Shown here in pieces: positions 4,281 to 13,126 of a stretch of DNA of 64,000 bases (within the stretch, counting starts at the first letter, position 1; each line of letters opens with the position of its first letter). The notes beneath the pieces are model-generated. The model did not search any database. It was not told the origin of the DNA and worked only from the letters and a program-made list of their open reading frames with translations. Position numbers and translations under genes: made by a program. Source of the DNA: Streptosporangium sp. NBC_01756 (GTDB lineage: Bacteria; Actinomycetota; Actinomycetes; Streptosporangiales; Streptosporangiaceae); NCBI RefSeq assembly GCF_035917975.1, contig NZ_CP109130.1:6076001-6140000 (forward strand), written 5' to 3'.

Positions 4281-4424
4281 TGGATGTTCCTCAACGGCGG
4301 TCGAGACCCCGAGGCCGCCGGGGCGGGACCACAGCCTGATCGTTTGCCGTACCGGCAACTTTACTTGTCAGGTCAGCGGCCACGCCGCACCGTGGACGCA
4401 GATGATGAGCAGAAGGAGCGCACG

Positions 4425-6008
4425 GTGAACGAGATGTACGACGTGGTGGTGGTAGGCGGCGGCGCGGCCGGGCTGAGCGGGGCCCTGGCGCTGGTGCGAG
4501 CGCGGCGGTCGGTGCTGGTGGTGGACGCCGGGGAGCCGCGCAACGCCCCGGCCGGGCACGTGCACAACTACCTGGCCCGGGAGGGTACGCCGCCTGCCGA
4601 GCTGGTGGCCGCCGGGCGCGACGAGGTGACCCGATACGGCGGCGAGATCGTCGCCGGATACGCCGAAGCCGCAACGAAGGAGGGCGACGGGTTCCTTGTG
4701 AAGCTGGACGGCGGACGCGGCGTGCGGGCGCGGCGGCTGCTCGTGACGACCGGGCTCGTCGACGAGCTGCCCGACGTGCCCGGGGTGGCCGAGCGGTGGG
4801 GTCGCGACGTGCTGCACTGTCCGTACTGCCACGGCTGGGAAGTCCGCGACCGGCGGATCGGCGTGCTGGCCACCGGGCCGATGGGCCCGCACCAAGCGCA
4901 CCTGTGGCGTCAGTGGAGCCCGCACGTCCTGCTCCTGCTGCACGGCACCCCGCCACCGGGCGCCGAGGAGGCCGAGCGGCTCGCGGCTCGCGAGATCGCC
5001 GTCGTGGACGGCCCGGTCGCGGGGCTCGAGGTGGCCGGTGACACGTTGACCGGGGTGCGGCTGGCTTCGGGCGAGGTCGTCACGCTCGACACGGTGGTCG
5101 TCGCGCCCCGGTTCACCGCTCGCGCGGGTGTGCTGGAGTCGCTCGGGCTGAAGCCGGTCGACCTGGAGATGGGTGGGCACGTCCTCGGCAGTCAGGTCCC
5201 CGCCGACTCGACCGGGGCCACCGACGTGCCCGGGGTGTGGGTGGCGGGCAACGTGGCCGACGTGCGCGCCCAAGTGATCGCGGCCGCTGCGGCGGGCCTG
5301 AACGCCGGCGCGGCGATCAACGCCGACCTCATCGCCGAGGAGACCCGCGCCGCCGTCGACGCGTACCGGCACCGGATCGACACGATGTTCGGGGAGGCCG
5401 CCTGGGAGGAGCGCTACCGCGCCAAGCCGGCGATCTGGAGCGGACGCCCCAACCCGCAGCTCGTCGCCGAGGCCACCGACCTGACCCCGGGCCGGGCGCT
5501 CGACGTCGGCTGCGGCGAGGGCGCCGACGCCGTCTGGCTCGCCGGGCGGGGCTGGCGGGTGACGGCGGTCGACATCTCCGCCACCGCACTTGAGCGCGCG
5601 GCCTCCCACGCTGCGGACGCCGGGGCGGAGGTCGCCGCACGTATCAGCTGGGCGCAGGGGGACCTGGGTGACCGGGTGCCCGCCGAGGGCGGGTACGACC
5701 TCGTGTCGTCACAGTTCATGCACCTGCCCGGCGAGCAGCGCCGGCCCCTGTTCGCCCGGCTGGCCGCCGCGGTGGCCCCGGGCGGCACTCTGCTGATCGT
5801 CGGGCACCACCCGTCCGACCTGCGGACCACGGCCCACCGGATGCACTTCCCGGACATGATGTTCACCGGTGAGGAGGTCGCGGCCTCTCTCGACCCCGCC
5901 GGGTGGGAGGTGGTGGTCGCCGAGGCCCGGCCGCGTGTCGCGGTCTCCCCCGAAGGGAGCGACATCACCATCCACGACGCCGTCCTGGTCGCGCGCCGCC
6001 GCGGGTGA
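4425..6008 (+). CDS. Fusion of thioredoxin reductase-like flavoprotein and SAM methyltransferase
   Basis: A 527-residue two-domain enzyme. Residues 1 to about 310 resemble thioredoxin-reductase-type flavoproteins: the FAD loop VVVVGGGAAGLSG near the start, the redox pair C132-P-Y-C135 in HCPYCHGWE, and the late GVWVAGNVADVRAQV FAD motif. From about residue 325 a class I methyltransferase begins, with motif I ALDVGCGEGADAVWLA near 357-372 and acidic motif II VTAVDIS. GTG 4425 is chosen because AAGGAG ends six bases upstream; ATG 4434 is the alternative. The redox pair suggests disulfide or dithiol chemistry. The methylated substrate is unknown, and no partner thioredoxin is adjacent. Confidence 0.85.
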   Translation: MNEMYDVVVVGGGAAGLSGALALVRARRSVLVVDAGEPRNAPAGHVHNYLAREGTPPAELVAAGRDEVTRYGGEIVAGYAEAATKEGDGFLVKLDGGRGVRARRLLVTTGLVDELPDVPGVAERWGRDVLHCPYCHGWEVRDRRIGVLATGPMGPHQAHLWRQWSPHVLLLLHGTPPPGAEEAERLAAREIAVVDGPVAGLEVAGDTLTGVRLASGEVVTLDTVVVAPRFTARAGVLESLGLKPVDLEMGGHVLGSQVPADSTGATDVPGVWVAGNVADVRAQVIAAAAAGLNAGAAINADLIAEETRAAVDAYRHRIDTMFGEAAWEERYRAKPAIWSGRPNPQLVAEATDLTPGRALDVGCGEGADAVWLAGRGWRVTAVDISATALERAASHAADAGAEVAARISWAQGDLGDRVPAEGGYDLVSSQFMHLPGEQRRPLFARLAAAVAPGGTLLIVGHHPSDLRTTAHRMHFPDMMFTGEEVAASLDPAGWEVVVAEARPRVAVSPEGSDITIHDAVLVARRRG

Positions 6009-6152
6009 ACCGCCCGGTAACCGTTGCACCCATCGAAATCTGCCGCTCACGATTCGTGGCGCCTGTCAGCTGCCGACCAGCTCAACGGCGGGTGTCGCGG
6101 AACCAGGGGCTCCTGGCCGCCAGACCGTGCCCGGCACGGTCGAAGAGGTCTG

Positions 6153-6182
6153 TTGACAGGCCTTGATCGTCGATCATACGCT
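6153..6182 (+). promoter_or_regulatory. Candidate promoter of the RiPP precursor operon
   Basis: TTGACA at 6153-6158 and TACGCT at 6177-6182 are separated by 18 bases, fitting an actinobacterial housekeeping promoter. They lie about 60 bases upstream of the precursor start. The rest of the 6009-6243 gap shows nothing else I can name. Confidence 0.4.
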
Positions 6183-6243
6183 GCGACAGGCATCCCCGGA
6201 CGGGGAATGCGAATTCCTTTCATAATTAGTCGTGGAGGTTTTC

Positions 6244-6399
6244 ATGAGTCCTGCGGAGATTGCTCAGATCAAGAGCAGCATGATGACGGGGAACGGCTCC
6301 GGGCAGCTGCTCGGCACGCCTTTTGCCGACGAATTGGAGCAGTTGGCGGCGGACTTCGTCGGCTGTGTCAACAGCGGCGGATTCAGTTCCGGCATCTAA
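6244..6399 (+). CDS. fxsA: FxSxx-COOH type RiPP precursor peptide
   Basis: A 51-residue ORF starting ATG after a GGAGG-type ribosome site about six bases upstream, and immediately preceding an FxsB-like radical SAM gene. It begins MSPAEIAQIKSSMMTG and ends GCVNSGGFSSGI, so its last five residues FSSGI fit the F-x-S-x-x C-terminal pattern that defines FxsA precursors. Residues 1 to about 36 form a probable leader with an acidic helix (FADELEQLAADF), and the Gly/Ser-rich end is the likely core. By analogy with three-residue cyclophane-forming maturases of the Xye/Grr/Fxs type, the Phe ring may be linked within F-S-S. A single Cys (residue 41) lies just before the core. The family call rests on the terminus and the neighbour, not on a search. 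Confidence 0.7.
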   Translation: MSPAEIAQIKSSMMTGNGSGQLLGTPFADELEQLAADFVGCVNSGGFSSGI

Positions 6400-6412
6400 A
6401 CTGAAACTCAGT

Positions 6413-6442
6413 ATCCCTCCACCTTTCATTAGGGAGAGGGAT
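6413..6442 (+). promoter_or_regulatory. Hairpin between precursor and maturase genes
   Basis: ATCCCTC (6413-6419) pairs with GAGGGAT (6436-6442) in the 69-base gap between the peptide stop and the maturase start. No T-run follows. Such intercistronic stems often leave the precursor more abundant than its enzyme; here that role is inferred only from position. Confidence 0.4.
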
Positions 6443-6468
6443 GCTTTCATTGGTGGCGGGGGTAGGTC

Positions 6469-7707
6469 GTGTCGGAATTAATCCAGCTTGCCGTGTCCAA
6501 TCGCAAGGAATGGCCGGAGAGTGGCCTGGACGTGGCGGCGCTGCGCGCCGGAGAATGGCAGCAGCCGCCATTCGATCTGTTTATCGTCAAGATTCATGAG
6601 CGCTGCAATCTGGCATGCACGTACTGTTATATGTACGAAATGGCAGACCAGTCGTGGCTCGGGCGGCCGATGGCGATGGCCGGCGAGACCATCGACGCAC
6701 TCGCCAGGCGCATTTCCGAGCACGTCGACGCGCACGATTTGAAAACCATTTATGTGGTCCTCCACGGGGGTGAGCCTCTGCTGGCCGGTCCTGACATGAT
6801 CGACCATTTTGTGCGCACCGTGCGCGACGCCGTCGAAGACCGGGCCGAGGTGCGGTTCAAAATGCAGACGAACGGTCTGCTGCTCGACGAGCGAATGCTC
6901 GGCGTGTTGCTCGCTCACGATGTCCGCATCGGGGTGAGTTTGGACGGCGGCGTGAAGGAGAACGACCGGAGCCGTAAATACCGCAACGGTCGGGGCAGCT
7001 ATTCGGATGTGGCGCGCGCAATGGAGCTCCTCGGCTCCGGACGGTTCCGGCGGTCCTTCTCCGGATTCCTCTGCGCCATCGACCTGAGAAATGACCCGAT
7101 AGAATGCTACGAGGCGCTGGCTGAATTCTCTCCGCCGGCCATCGACTTCATGCTTCCCCATGCCAATTGGACGACCCCTCCGCCGCGTGCCGAGAGTGGT
7201 TCCAGCCCCGCGCCGTACGCGGACTGGCTGATCCGGATATACGAATACTGGCGAAAGAATCCGGACAAGCCGAAGGTGCGGTTCTTCCAGAACATCTTCC
7301 GGCTGTCGCTGGGCGGCCCCAGCACGGTGGAATACATAGGACTGTCACCGGTCCGGCTCGTCGTCATCGACACCGACGGCAGTCTCCAGCAGGCCGATTC
7401 GCTGAAGTCGACCTTCCCGGGAGCCCCCGAGACCGGGCTGAACGTCTTCGAGCACAGCTTCGACACAGCCCTGGACCACCCGGCGGTGATCGCCCGGCAG
7501 ATAGGCGCCTCAGGCCTCAGCGCGACGTGTCAGGCATGCGCGATCAGCGACGTGTGCGGCGGCGGGCACTACACACACAGATATCGCAGTGGCTCGGGAT
7601 TCCTCAACCCGTCGGTATATTGCGCCGATCTGATGCGCCTGGTCACACATATTCAGCAGGACATGAGACGAGAGCTTCTCGCGGACAGGGAAGCGTCGGA
7701 TGCCTGA
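6469..7707 (+). CDS. fxsB: FxsB-like radical SAM/SPASM peptide maturase
   Basis: A 412-residue enzyme. The radical SAM motif is C46-x3-C50-x2-C53 in HERCNLACTYCYMY. A C-terminal SPASM region carries C354, C357, C363 and C385 within CQACAISDVCGGG and NPSVYCADL; the sequence GGGHYTHRYR, then GFLNPSVYCADL, is the FxsB-type ending I recognise. The family forms a carbon-carbon or similar radical crosslink on the precursor. The protein stops shortly after SPASM and lacks the long metallohydrolase-like (HExxH) extension found on many FxsB proteins. The GTG start follows a GGGGGTAGG stretch. It overlaps the next gene by eight bases, so they are co-translated. Confidence 0.8.
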   Translation: MSELIQLAVSNRKEWPESGLDVAALRAGEWQQPPFDLFIVKIHERCNLACTYCYMYEMADQSWLGRPMAMAGETIDALARRISEHVDAHDLKTIYVVLHGGEPLLAGPDMIDHFVRTVRDAVEDRAEVRFKMQTNGLLLDERMLGVLLAHDVRIGVSLDGGVKENDRSRKYRNGRGSYSDVARAMELLGSGRFRRSFSGFLCAIDLRNDPIECYEALAEFSPPAIDFMLPHANWTTPPPRAESGSSPAPYADWLIRIYEYWRKNPDKPKVRFFQNIFRLSLGGPSTVEYIGLSPVRLVVIDTDGSLQQADSLKSTFPGAPETGLNVFEHSFDTALDHPAVIARQIGASGLSATCQACAISDVCGGGHYTHRYRSGSGFLNPSVYCADLMRLVTHIQQDMRRELLADREASDA

Positions 7708-8935
7708 ACTCCGCATCCCCCCATACCGGCTTCCAGGGGGAGCGAAACCGTTCGCCCGGCGCCTGCGCGCGCTGTTGTCCGCAGGCCGGCCCGCCGCCTG
7801 CCCCGTGCCCATCGGCCTTACGGCTCCGCAGCCGCTGTCCGACACGGTCGCGATCTGTACGCACGCCATCGCCAGGCACCTGGTGGAGGGTGACGCCGCC
7901 GCGTTGCCGATCTTCAATACCCGGCCGCCCGACACGTGGCGGATTCTCACCGCGGCCAGTTGGAACCGCCCGGACGCCTTCACCGAGGAGTTCGGCGACC
8001 TGCCCGCCGACCTGGCGTCAGGCCTCTGGCTCCAGGTCGATCAGGTGTGCCGCGACAGGGACTCTCTCCCGCCCCCCGCGTTACGCGCCGCCGCCGACCT
8101 GCTACTCCGCCTGGGATACCCGAAGAGGGCGGCCGAGCTTCTCGGCATGTCCGGGACGAAGGCCGACGCTCATCGCTTCAATCCCCAGCTCGCCCGCGAG
8201 GAGATGTCGGTTCTCTTCAGATTTCACCATGACTCGGCCCAACTTGAGCAGCTCGCACTGAATGCGGCGGCGGACGAGGAAATCGACGCGTACGCGCGCC
8301 TCATGCTGGCGAACTTCATCGTGGTGCGCAACGGCAAGAGAGGGACCGACACGCCGGAGGCACATCGGGCGGCGGAGTTGGGCAGAGCGGCGCTGGCATC
8401 CCTCGACGACACGGAAACGGTCAAAGCCCTGGCCGAGCACACCTGGTTGCGCGCGGTGGCCTACCTCCCCTTCCTGAAGTCGGACGTCAAGGCCACGCTC
8501 GCGACGCTCGACCGCGCGGAGGAGTGTCTCGCCCTCGGACGGCCCTCGCAGGGGACGTTGCGCATCCTGGCCTGGGAGGATCACGCCACACCCCTGTACG
8601 AGACGCTGGCGAAGACCCTCATCGTCTTCGGTCAGGCAGAGCGGGCCGTCGCGGCGACGGACCGGCTGGTCGAGCTCAACCCGCACGATCACCGAACATG
8701 GAACCGCCGCGGGCAGGCCCTTGTCGCGGCGGGGCGCATCGACGAGGCGCTGCCCGCGTTCGAGCGCACGCTCCCGCTGGGCGGCATCGCGGTCGCCGAA
8801 GCGGCCTTCCACCTGGGCTGGGTCTACGAACAACTGGGGAAGCCGGACCTCGCTCGCGACCACTACCTGCTGTCCCAGCGGGTGGATCCCACAGTCGACG
8901 TGGTGGACGAGCGGTTGAAGAACCTGCCGCAATGA
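7700..8935 (+). CDS. TPR protein of the RiPP locus, function unknown
   Basis: A 411-residue cytoplasmic protein with no signal peptide or membrane span. The C-terminal 150 residues form recognisable tetratricopeptide helices, for example GQALVAAGRIDEALPAFERTL followed by AFHLGWVYEQLGKPDLARDHY. The N-terminal 250 residues are helical, with no motif I can name and no HExxH. It overlaps the maturase by eight bases and the exporter by four, so it belongs to the same operon and may act as scaffold, chaperone or immunity factor. A TPR protein is known beside some Fxs systems (FxsT), but I cannot tell whether this is the same family. Confidence 0.65.
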   Translation: MPELRIPPYRLPGGAKPFARRLRALLSAGRPAACPVPIGLTAPQPLSDTVAICTHAIARHLVEGDAAALPIFNTRPPDTWRILTAASWNRPDAFTEEFGDLPADLASGLWLQVDQVCRDRDSLPPPALRAAADLLLRLGYPKRAAELLGMSGTKADAHRFNPQLAREEMSVLFRFHHDSAQLEQLALNAAADEEIDAYARLMLANFIVVRNGKRGTDTPEAHRAAELGRAALASLDDTETVKALAEHTWLRAVAYLPFLKSDVKATLATLDRAEECLALGRPSQGTLRILAWEDHATPLYETLAKTLIVFGQAERAVAATDRLVELNPHDHRTWNRRGQALVAAGRIDEALPAFERTLPLGGIAVAEAAFHLGWVYEQLGKPDLARDHYLLSQRVDPTVDVVDERLKNLPQ

Positions 8936-10164
8936 CGGTGATCGACGAGAAGCCCCCGGCGTTGTGGCGGAACAGGAACTTCGTCCTCCTCTGGATCGGC
9001 TCCGCGGCGTCCGTCATGGGCAGCCGGGTCTCCGGCATCGCGCTTCCCCTGCTCGTGCTGGCACTGACCGGTTCGCCGGTGCAGGCGGGCTGGGTCGCGT
9101 TCGCCGGCATGCTCCCCGATCTCCTGCTCTACCTTCCGGCGGGCCCCCTCGTCGACCGGTGGGACTGGCGGAGAGTGATGGTGCTGTCCGAGCTCGGACG
9201 GGGACTGGCCGTCTGCGCCCTGGTCATCTCCTTGGTCTTCGGGACTCCGGGCATCGCCCTCATCATCGCGGTCGCCTTCGTCGAAGGGGCCCTGGGCGTT
9301 TTCTACCGCCTGGCCGAGCGGCTCTCCGTCCCGTCGGTCGTGCCCGAGGGCCAGGTCGCGGGTGCCCTGGCGGCGAATGAGACCCGGATGAATTCCGCCC
9401 TGCTGCTGGGCCGTTCGCTGGGCGGCTTCCTCTTCGGCCTCGGACGGGCCGTCCCCTTCGTCGTCGACGCACTCTCGTTCGCCGTCTCGTTCGGGACGCT
9501 CGTCTCAATGTGGGGGACCACCAGGCGGCCGACCCGCGAGCGACGGCACATCCTGCGGGAGATGATCGAAGGGCTCAGCTGGGTGGGACGCGACCCGTTC
9601 CTGCGAGCCGACCTCGTGGTGACGGTGGGCGTGGGCATCTGCGTGCACGCGCTGATCCTCACCTTCCTGGCGGGGGCTCAACAGCACGGGGTGTCGCCGT
9701 TCCTGATCGGGGTGACCCTCTCGATGCCGGGAATCGGCGGGGTGATCGGGGCACTCGTCGCGGCCCCGATCTTCCGGCGCTTCGGCTTCTCGGTGACTCT
9801 CGCGCAAACGTGGATCTGGGCCGGCGCGCTCGCCTTCCCGCTCCTGGGCGTCGATGTCCTCCCGGTGACGGGTGCCCTGCTGGTCACCGGGTTCATCGGT
9901 TCGGTGGGAAACGTGTCCATGAACATGTATCTGGTTCGGCAGGCCCCCGCGCACATGCTGGGCCGGGTGTCCGGCGTCGCACTCATGGCGCTGTTCGTCG
10001 GCAACGCGGTGGGGCCGCTCTACGGCGGATTCCTCGCAGAGCACCTGGGCGTCGACGCCGTCGCGCCGATCCTGTTCGCCGGAATGGTGCTCCTCGCCGT
10101 CTGGGCCACCACCGTTCCGGCCATCCGCCGTCCGCCGGCCTTCACGACCGGATCCACCGCCTGA
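8932..10164 (+). CDS. MFS exporter of the RiPP locus
   Basis: A 410-residue major facilitator transporter with about 12 hydrophobic segments, beginning LWRNRNFVLLWIGSAASVMGSRVSGIALPLL in consecutive stretches. This start is like MFS_3 exporters (EntS type). ATG 8932 overlaps the TPR gene stop (ATGA). Its place at the end of the precursor-maturase-TPR operon suggests export of the modified peptide. No peptidase domain is fused to it and no separate leader peptidase is seen nearby, so leader removal is unexplained. Confidence 0.8.
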   Translation: MTVIDEKPPALWRNRNFVLLWIGSAASVMGSRVSGIALPLLVLALTGSPVQAGWVAFAGMLPDLLLYLPAGPLVDRWDWRRVMVLSELGRGLAVCALVISLVFGTPGIALIIAVAFVEGALGVFYRLAERLSVPSVVPEGQVAGALAANETRMNSALLLGRSLGGFLFGLGRAVPFVVDALSFAVSFGTLVSMWGTTRRPTRERRHILREMIEGLSWVGRDPFLRADLVVTVGVGICVHALILTFLAGAQQHGVSPFLIGVTLSMPGIGGVIGALVAAPIFRRFGFSVTLAQTWIWAGALAFPLLGVDVLPVTGALLVTGFIGSVGNVSMNMYLVRQAPAHMLGRVSGVALMALFVGNAVGPLYGGFLAEHLGVDAVAPILFAGMVLLAVWATTVPAIRRPPAFTTGSTA

Positions 10165-10278
10165 GGGAACAGGCACGAGTGGCGCCGGCGAGGAAAGCCG
10201 GCTGTTCGGCCCGGACACCACCCGGCCGCCGAGGCCCCACGTCCGAGAACGGCACACCGGCGGTGACCGCCTCGTCCG

Positions 10279-11208
10279 CTATGGCTTCGCGTACTTCTCC
10301 AGATCGTCGAGGATCTTCCCGGCGGCGGTGACCCCGATACCGGTCATCCAGGTCTCGTCGTCGACGTTGTGGGCCCTGCCGTCCTTGACCGGCGGCAGAT
10401 TCTTCCACAGGGGGCCGCCGATGACCGTGGCCTGGCTCTCCGCGGCCTTGGCGCCGTAGGCGCTGTAGAAGAGCACGTCGCCGCCGGCCTGGGAGAGGTT
10501 CTCCTGGCTCAGCTCGCCGAACCGCTTGTCCTGGGCGGTTGCCAGGCGCTGCGGTTCGGGACGACCGAAACCGGCGTCGCCGACGACGATGCCGCTGAAC
10601 GACTCGGGGCCGTACATCCGGATCTGCGCGGGCATGAAGCGGATGATGCTCACGTTGACCGCGTTGGAGCCGCCGAGGGACTGTGCCCGGGCCTGGTAGT
10701 CGGCGAGGAGCTTCTCCGCCTGCGCCTTCCTGCCCAGCGCGTCGGCGTCGAGGAGCAGGTTCTCCTTCCATGTGGTCCCGACCTTCTCGGTGAACACGGT
10801 GGGGGCGATCTGGCGGAGCTTGTCGTAGAACTGCTCCTGCCGGAACTTGGTGCCGAGGATCAGGTCCGGTTTGAGCGCGGCGATGGCCTCAAGATTGAGC
10901 GTCTGGAGGGTGCCGACCGGCTTGGTGGCGTTCAGGGTGGACCCCAGGTATTTCGGCCATGCCTGGTTCTCGGCCGCCTGCGCGGCACCGACGGGTGTGA
11001 GGCCCAGGGAGACCATGGTGTCAAGCTTGTCGGTGTCGAGCACGATGACCCGCTTGGGGGATTCAGGGACCTTCGTCTCGCCCATCGCGTGCTTGATCAT
11101 GCGGGTCGAACCCTCGGCGGCCTGGTCGTCGGCGGAGGAGCCGCAGGCCGTGAGAGCGAGGGCGGACAGCAGGACGGCGGCCGCGGCCCTGGCCATACGG
11201 ATGGTCAT
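10279..11208 (-). CDS. Iron-siderophore ABC transporter substrate-binding lipoprotein
   Basis: A 309-residue exported lipoprotein. The signal peptide ends at the lipobox L19-T-A-C22, followed by a FecB/CeuE-type fold with KRVIVLDTDKLDTMVSLGL and LNLEAIAALKPDLILGT, the usual siderophore-binding family signatures. ATG 11208 is chosen because it starts the signal peptide after GAGGGGATCCG; an upstream in-frame start would add ten unlikely residues across the iron box. It binds a ferric chelate outside the cell and would hand it to a permease, but no permease or ATPase gene is adjacent. It is convergent with the MFS exporter gene. Confidence 0.88.
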   Translation of the reverse strand: MTIRMARAAAAVLLSALALTACGSSADDQAAEGSTRMIKHAMGETKVPESPKRVIVLDTDKLDTMVSLGLTPVGAAQAAENQAWPKYLGSTLNATKPVGTLQTLNLEAIAALKPDLILGTKFRQEQFYDKLRQIAPTVFTEKVGTTWKENLLLDADALGRKAQAEKLLADYQARAQSLGGSNAVNVSIIRFMPAQIRMYGPESFSGIVVGDAGFGRPEPQRLATAQDKRFGELSQENLSQAGGDVLFYSAYGAKAAESQATVIGGPLWKNLPPVKDGRAHNVDDETWMTGIGVTAAGKILDDLEKYAKP

Positions 11209-11225
11209 CGGATCCCCTCGGGAGT

Positions 11226-11244
11226 TTAGGTAAGGCATGCCTGA
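11226..11244 (-). promoter_or_regulatory. IdeR/DmdR (DtxR-family) iron box
   Basis: TTAGGTAAGGCATGCCTGA matches the 19-base IdeR/DmdR consensus TTAGGTTAGGCTAACCTAA at 15 of 19 positions and keeps its dyad symmetry. It lies 18 bases upstream of the siderophore-binding protein start, so iron-replete repression is expected. Confidence 0.8.
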
Positions 11245-11274
11245 GGGTAGTTGCGGTCATCTACTGGTCAAGCT

Positions 11275-11301
11275 TCGACCCATCCGAAACCTCCCGGAAA
11301 C
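11275..11301 (+). promoter_or_regulatory. Possible GlnR-type site upstream of amtB
   Basis: TCGAC-n6-GAAAC-n6-GAAAC (11275-11301) keeps the 11-base spacing of actinobacterial GlnR boxes (gTnAC-n6-GaAAC). The two GAAAC repeats are exact, while the first half-site is weak. It lies about 170 bases upstream of the ammonium transporter, a classic GlnR target. Confidence 0.35.
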
Positions 11302-11471
11302 ACCGCATGGCCGAGATTCACAGATGCGAAACACACATGGTTGTGGCCTGAAACGGCAGAAGAAGACGCTTTGGCGCAACGTCAGTGCGCGGCCGGTCGA
11401 CGAAGCCCAGGAAGCGTTCACTGCGACCGTGAAATCGGCCACACGCCATTTGTAAGGGAGGGTCGCGTCGA

Positions 11472-13126
<1,655 letters not shown>

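Follow-up and report, generated by a model that had tools for sequence, protein, structure and literature searches.

A four-gene cassette and its boundaries

We analysed a 64,000-nucleotide stretch of the Streptosporangium sp. NBC_01756 genome (hereafter the window; G000:C1:6076001-6140000 of a 9.0 Mb genome). Positions 6153-10164 of the window hold a set of four genes, encoding a 51-residue peptide, an FxsB-type radical S-adenosylmethionine (SAM)/SPASM enzyme, a tetratricopeptide repeat (TPR) protein and a major facilitator superfamily (MFS) exporter. An earlier note on this DNA had described a 51-residue peptide ending in FSSGI in front of an FxsB-like enzyme, followed by TPR and MFS genes, and this observation was confirmed. 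We hold the gene set and the family of the enzyme with high confidence. The features are as follows.

6027..10210, no strand: extent absent from the related genome G001 (empty site), from DNA matches to the flanks
6153..6182, plus strand: promoter-like site TTGACA-N18-TACGCT, read from the alignment with genome G013
6194..6205, plus strand: short GC hairpin in the putative 5' leader, found by eye in the alignment
6244..6399, plus strand: precursor peptide gene, 51 aa, C-terminus GGFSSGI, GGAGG before the ATG
6410..6445, plus strand: hairpin in the peptide/enzyme gap, 10-bp outer stem (6410-6419 pairs with 6436-6445)
6469..7707, plus strand: FxsB-family radical SAM/SPASM peptide maturase gene, 412 aa, GTG start (TIGR04269)
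7700..8935, plus strand: TPR protein gene, 411 aa (Pfam TPR matches)
8932..10164, plus strand: MFS exporter gene, 410 aa (PF07690)

The genes had been described as all coupled by overlaps. This holds for the enzyme and TPR genes, which overlap by 8 nt, and for the TPR and MFS genes, which share an ATGA, but not for the peptide and enzyme genes, which lie 69 nt apart with a hairpin between them. The window hairpin folds with a z score of -1.97 (7 of 200 shuffles equal or better), and its counterpart in the orthologous locus of genome G013 has a 12-bp outer stem and a z score of -3.63 (0 of 200 shuffles). The element is a possible attenuator or stability element. Upstream of the peptide gene G013 carries TTGACA-N18-TACGGT, making TTGACA-N18-TACGNT common to both copies in the alignment, and by eye a different GC hairpin occupies the same spot in its 5' leader; a scan with a promoter consensus detected no promoter-like site. 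Only one of the 452 open reading frames (ORFs) with lengths of 20-130 aa in the window ends in FxSxx, and this is the 51-aa peptide. The ratio of nonsynonymous to synonymous substitution rates (dN/dS) against G013 ranges from 0.22 to 0.45 across all four genes.

The cassette is rare and has sharp edges. The peptide was present in 1 of 15 other genomes sampled in the genus and in 1 of 344 others sampled in the order, the same genome, G013, in both cases (2 of 16 and 2 of 345 when G000 is included). The G013 locus (L018) aligns to window 6232-10165 with 83% DNA identity over 3941 columns, whereas the rest of the 64-kb window has no match to the 19.5-kb L018 at E 1e-10. Both the TPR and the MFS gene stay with the cassette in G013. 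There the cassette lies at 1.68 Mb, far from amtB at 7.99 Mb, so its location differs; its identity to G013 is about that of amtB (84%). The close relative G001 (97% identity at amtB) displays an empty site: its matches to window 4299-6026 and 10211-12788 (94-95% identity) lie 13 bp apart, and window 6027-10210 is therefore absent there. This was seen in 1 of 4 relatives searched; the other three (G008, G009 and G010) match the right flank, starting near window 10283, with no long left match joined to it. We rejected the idea that the cassette is a transposon, as its edges displayed neither terminal nor target repeats. On the left, outside the cassette, window 4284-6008 holds, beside a TetR gene, a 574-aa ORF that joins a thioredoxin-reductase-like oxidoreductase to a methyltransferase domain; this DNA is present in G001.

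The maturase and its candidate substrate

FxsB-family maturases, for which we take IPR026335 to be the InterPro entry, are a known kind of enzyme. The earlier note called the window enzyme FxsB-like, and the TIGR04269 (FxsB) model bears this out with 476.2 bits against a cut-off of 370; the YhhB model gave 354 bits, under its own cut-off of 445. The radical SAM cysteines 46, 50 and 53 (CX3CX2C) and cysteines 354, 357 and 363 are common to all 73 other rows of our alignment, and the SPASM-region Cys 385 is kept in 70 of them. A 75-row tree groups the window enzyme with that of G013 (100/100); the pair has a long stem, lies inside the FxsB-like rows and is joined to seven other loci with support of 95/88. 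The tree was rooted at its midpoint, with the distant L013 outermost as the sole outlying row; besides the window enzyme, L019, L096 and L018 are the rows that were scored with TIGR04269. Enzyme relatives occur in 122 of 200 genomes sampled in the family (E <= 1e-60). Plasmid records gave no close copy (19 records, all below 60% identity). Actinobacterial triceptide maturases were reportedly treated by Phan and Morinaka in 2022, who may describe relatives.

The fold agrees with the family. A structure model computed from a 12-sequence alignment (mean predicted local distance difference test, pLDDT, 76; predicted template modelling score, pTM, 0.80) has ChlB complexes (9gm3/9gmc) as its four best PDB matches, with template modelling (TM) scores of 0.83-0.84 on the query and 0.92 on the target, at 37-38% identity; anaerobic sulfatase maturases come next in the ranking. 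The ChlB structure matched is a complex with leader peptide. The window enzyme shares the fold of ChlB and differs in having no domain of the alpha-ketoglutarate (aKG)-HExxH kind; ChlB derives from a radical SAM protein fused to such a domain (PMC12636437).

The peptide looks like a real, selected gene: dN/dS of its frame against G013 is 0.22, a rough value from only 51 codons with near-saturated synonymous divergence (dS 1.09). It is 63% identical to its G013 orthologue, which ends in GFNAGV instead of GFSSGI. Differences between the two fall on 7 of the last 10 residues versus 12 of the first 41 (the start codon among the 12), a pattern that suggests a conserved leader followed by a variable core.

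The locus had also been called FxSxx-type, and placing its peptide in the FxSxx/FxsA family is not supported. TIGR04268 (FxsA, cut-off 28) gave no match to the peptide in hmmscan at E up to 1, a genome search in which 150 of 648 candidates were scored has one entry among the matches listed, the FxsA at 1.59 Mb, and the only orthologue found ends in FNAGV. By eye, an 'L-x-GT...L' pattern resembles the FxsA helix 'LDGTVLGEAL', suggesting a divergent FxsA. We rejected this reading on a profile of 23 peptides, against which the window peptide scored -0.5 bits with 589 of 3000 shuffles equal or better; holding the last five or six residues fixed raised this to 930 and 1708 of 3000, respectively. 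For the profile, our peptide filter was run on 30 FxsA loci, 7 of which gave none; peptides from 20 of the 23 loci returned (near copies L035, L043 and L044 dropped) were joined by three sister-clade peptides, with starts chosen by hand and tails past the motif trimmed. A 29-aa peptide from locus L096 scored 6.9 bits on the same profile, with 2 of 3000 full shuffles matching it; 340 of 3000 did so when its last six residues were kept, and its signal is thus mostly the C-terminal motif. The only Pfam match of the window peptide, DUF6774 (E 0.13, under cut-off), was taken as chance.

In all seven sister loci, a frame that immediately precedes FxsB or extends into it has an aromatic-x-(S/N) motif close to or at its end. 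The third motif position is variable, since FDS (L089, L101), FQS (L095) and FDN (L091, L102, L104, L105) all occur. No HExxH relative was found near the four loci with F-D-N near the end. Elsewhere, L099:4687-4932 encodes a putative FxsA-like peptide before FxsB, with a signal-peptide-like N-terminus and the end TFTSVAPRL.

The TPR-MFS pair and the neighbours of other FxsB genes

We compared the cassette with 72 other FxsB loci, comprising 60 hand-picked loci (weighted to higher scores), 11 others and the canonical locus of G000 itself. For each partner a single tblastn query was used at 1e-5, within about 5 kb (7 kb for the 11; less at contig ends, e.g. L087), so that partners farther away are missed and 'NB-ARC/TPR' matches may include other NB-ARC or TPR proteins. 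A relative of the HExxH protein and/or the NB-ARC/TPR protein lies nearby in 70 of the 72: both in 56, HExxH only in 4, NB-ARC/TPR only in 10 and neither in 2. The cassette, with 15 kb of the window and the 19.5 kb of L018 searched, yielded no tblastn relative of the HExxH or FxSxx_TPR protein. One FxsB-like gene, in L120, had neither usual partner, and our filter returned no upstream ORF with a Phe near its end there.

The canonical Fxs locus of G000 is separate (L019, G000:C1:1580000-1599900, positions 6990-12640) and holds FxsB, an aKG-HExxH hydroxylase, an FxSxx_TPR protein and an FxsA ending in AGFTSSI. Its NB-ARC/TPR protein matches NF040586, the FxSxx-COOH system TPR protein, with 1065 bits, and its HExxH protein matches TIGR04267 with 170 bits (cut-off 40). 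The window cassette had been called minimal, with no protease and no HExxH domain, wording that puts HExxH alongside proteases. We likewise found no HExxH relative nearby and no protease in the cassette; NCBIfam names the HExxH protein of L019 an aKG-HExxH-type peptide beta-hydroxylase (see also PMC12636437). Canonical Fxs systems (TIGR04268, TIGR04269, TIGR04267, NF040586) resemble the cassette in the enzyme family and in the F-x-S-x-x end of the window peptide, and differ from it in that its peptide falls outside TIGR04268 and the FxsA profile and in that it has TPR and MFS genes, with no relative of the HExxH or FxSxx_TPR protein nearby.

MFS relatives longer than 200 aa lie near FxsB in 4 of the 72 loci: on the same strand 14 nt away in L096 and 659 nt away in L127, and on the opposite strand in L112 and L142. 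L096 (G225:C18, 3731-6311, minus strand) consists of the 29-aa peptide, which ends in GPGFNSSL, FxsB and the MFS gene; the survey found neither an HExxH nor an NB-ARC/TPR relative nearby. FxsB beside an MFS gene thus also occurs without a TPR protein.

Pfam TPR matches in the TPR protein span residues ~300-398, and scans of NCBIfam and Pfam gave no match to NF040586 (FxSxx_TPR) or to an NB-ARC model. The MFS protein, scanned from its second codon, matches PF07690 with 111.7 bits and TIGR00900 with 144.8 bits, the latter under its cut-off of 319.6. Relatives of the TPR protein are rare, found in 5 of 345 genomes of the order (E 1e-10) and in 2 of 396 across the phylum (E 1e-12), G000 included in both counts; the other phylum genome is G677. 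Three distant relatives in the order (L025, L026, L027) are 28-31% identical, the one from G204 partial and weak; the L027 match is partial, over residues 197-405 (E 8.4e-11). All three have a ThiF-family gene and an MFS gene, each within ~3 kb. L026 has in addition two HExxH-like genes (one TIGR04267) and PhyH, and L027 a B12-radical SAM gene and a P450. A search of 313 small ORFs for a leader shared between the cassette and these loci gave no convincing match (best E 0.26). A 35-aa ORF with a GGAG-type site at L025:9230-9337, minus strand, between the ThiF and alpha/beta hydrolase genes, is a possible precursor. The three loci may be unrelated peptide clusters that share the TPR-MFS pair, and biphenomycin clusters likewise have both kinds of protein. 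This suggests, short of proof, that the pair is a general peptide-handling and export module.

A predicted exported, Phe-crosslinked peptide

We consider it rather probable that the cassette is a self-contained triceptide-type unit for a ribosomally synthesized and post-translationally modified peptide (RiPP), making an exported, Phe-crosslinked peptide with a predicted link between F47 and S49. The FxsB score above cut-off, the position in the FxsB tree, the ChlB fold match and the retained radical SAM/SPASM cysteines argue for this, as do the conserved leader and variable core, the motifs of the sister loci, the MFS gene present in both orthologous loci and in L096 of G225, and the sharp boundaries. 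Known chemistry is in keeping with it: as described in PMC11002830, MscB (IPR026335) joins Phe C4 to Ser C-beta, and HaaB and ScaB join His C2 to Ala C-beta. The earlier suggestion of a compact gene set of RiPP type that includes TPR and MFS genes is supported, and the interpretation that came with it is supported in part.

The 51-aa peptide would be made from a putative promoter just upstream, with the intergenic hairpin perhaps reducing transcription that runs on into the enzyme gene. The maturase would bind the conserved N-terminal region of the peptide and link the Phe47 ring to C-beta of residue 49, which is Ser in the window and Ala in G013. The reaction would remove 2 H and leave a strained F-S-S cyclophane (F-N-A in G013) near the C-terminus. 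We assign the site F47-S48-S49 with moderate confidence. The TPR protein might hold or escort the peptide and the MFS protein export it, roles in which our confidence is low to moderate; the leader would be removed by a protease encoded elsewhere.

Several observations weigh against this interpretation. The cassette has no protease, and the whole cassette was found in only two examples. The serine of the motif, residue 49, is Ala in the G013 orthologue, and the C-terminal F-x-S-x-x is present in the window copy only. The peptide has no similarity to FxsA leaders, and it holds a possible alternative crosslink site in F27-A28-D29 (aromatic-x-Asp), identical in both orthologues. The TPR structure model, made without an alignment, is weak (mean pLDDT 58.5), and the roles given to the TPR and MFS proteins derive solely from gene neighbourhood.

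If the enzyme crosslinks F27-A28-D29, or both sites, the C-terminal part would be a follower and the FSS end a coincidence. The constancy of this triad while the C-terminal motif shifts from FSS to FNA fits such a scheme, and PMC11002830 gives Asn as the third residue for XncB, Asp for YxdB and Asp or Asn for OscB. We find it unlikely, given that RiPP precursors usually combine a conserved leader with a C-terminal core that varies, and that in the sister loci the aromatic-x-(S/N) motif sits close to or at the C-terminal end. The enzyme might instead carry out another chemistry, for example oxidise Ser49 or form a thioether to Cys41. This reading draws on the conservation of that cysteine, a possible alternative modification site, in both orthologues and on the sulfatase maturases ranking next after ChlB. 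It seems very improbable to us: the best sequence family and the best structure match are both cyclophane makers, and serine oxidation at residue 49 is excluded in G013, where the residue is Ala.

The locus could also be an altered Fxs conflict system, in which peptide and enzyme stay inside the cell, the TPR protein acts as receptor and the MFS gene is incidental. Most other FxsB loci have HExxH and/or NB-ARC/TPR relatives, and Kaur et al. (PMC7159879) assign FxSxx peptides and their partners (radical SAM/SPASM enzymes, AP-ATPase/TPR proteins and a zincin-like metallopeptidase) to conflict systems, as peptide-processing parts; we infer that the metallopeptidase is the TIGR04267 protein. This reading of the present cassette is quite unlikely, as its TPR protein matches neither NF040586 nor an NB-ARC model, its TPR and MFS genes overlap and are both kept with it in G013, and all four genes have dN/dS of 0.22-0.45.

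The natural product had been called apparently undescribed. The expected Phe C4-Ser C-beta chemistry is already described for MscB, so that the novelty lies in the substrate and partners, the combination of which appears new in what was searched. Queries on FxsB, FxsA, FxSxx, triceptide, 3-CyFE (three-residue cyclophane-forming enzyme), ChlB and TPR/MFS/RiPP gave no title on an FxsB-TPR-MFS cassette among the matches listed, which does not show absence from print. MscB, compared here on chemistry, resembles the window enzyme in its predicted action on F-x-S and differs in that the orthologue of the window peptide has F-x-A. Biphenomycin clusters (bip, pbs) are similar by description, in that an MFS transporter, a TPR protein and a short precursor accompany a radical SAM gene; they differ in their B12-radical SAM enzyme, multinuclear nonheme iron-dependent oxidase (MNIO) and arginase-type TPR protein (PMC12707348, PMC12257519).

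More tentatively, FxsB may have been recruited out of its FxSxx/AP-ATPase conflict-system context into a small transferable secreted-peptide cassette, with a leader unrelated to FxsA, a Phe-to-Ser/Ala cyclophane at the extreme C-terminus and a TPR-MFS pair dedicated to escort and export, which would also work for unrelated peptide clusters that contain ThiF. A four-gene FxsB unit with its own exporter and a non-FxsA substrate is a small, easily refactored test system. With it one could address what FxsB enzymes need in a leader, whether Ala is tolerated as the third residue, and whether peptides of the Fxs type may be secreted products rather than intracellular signals.

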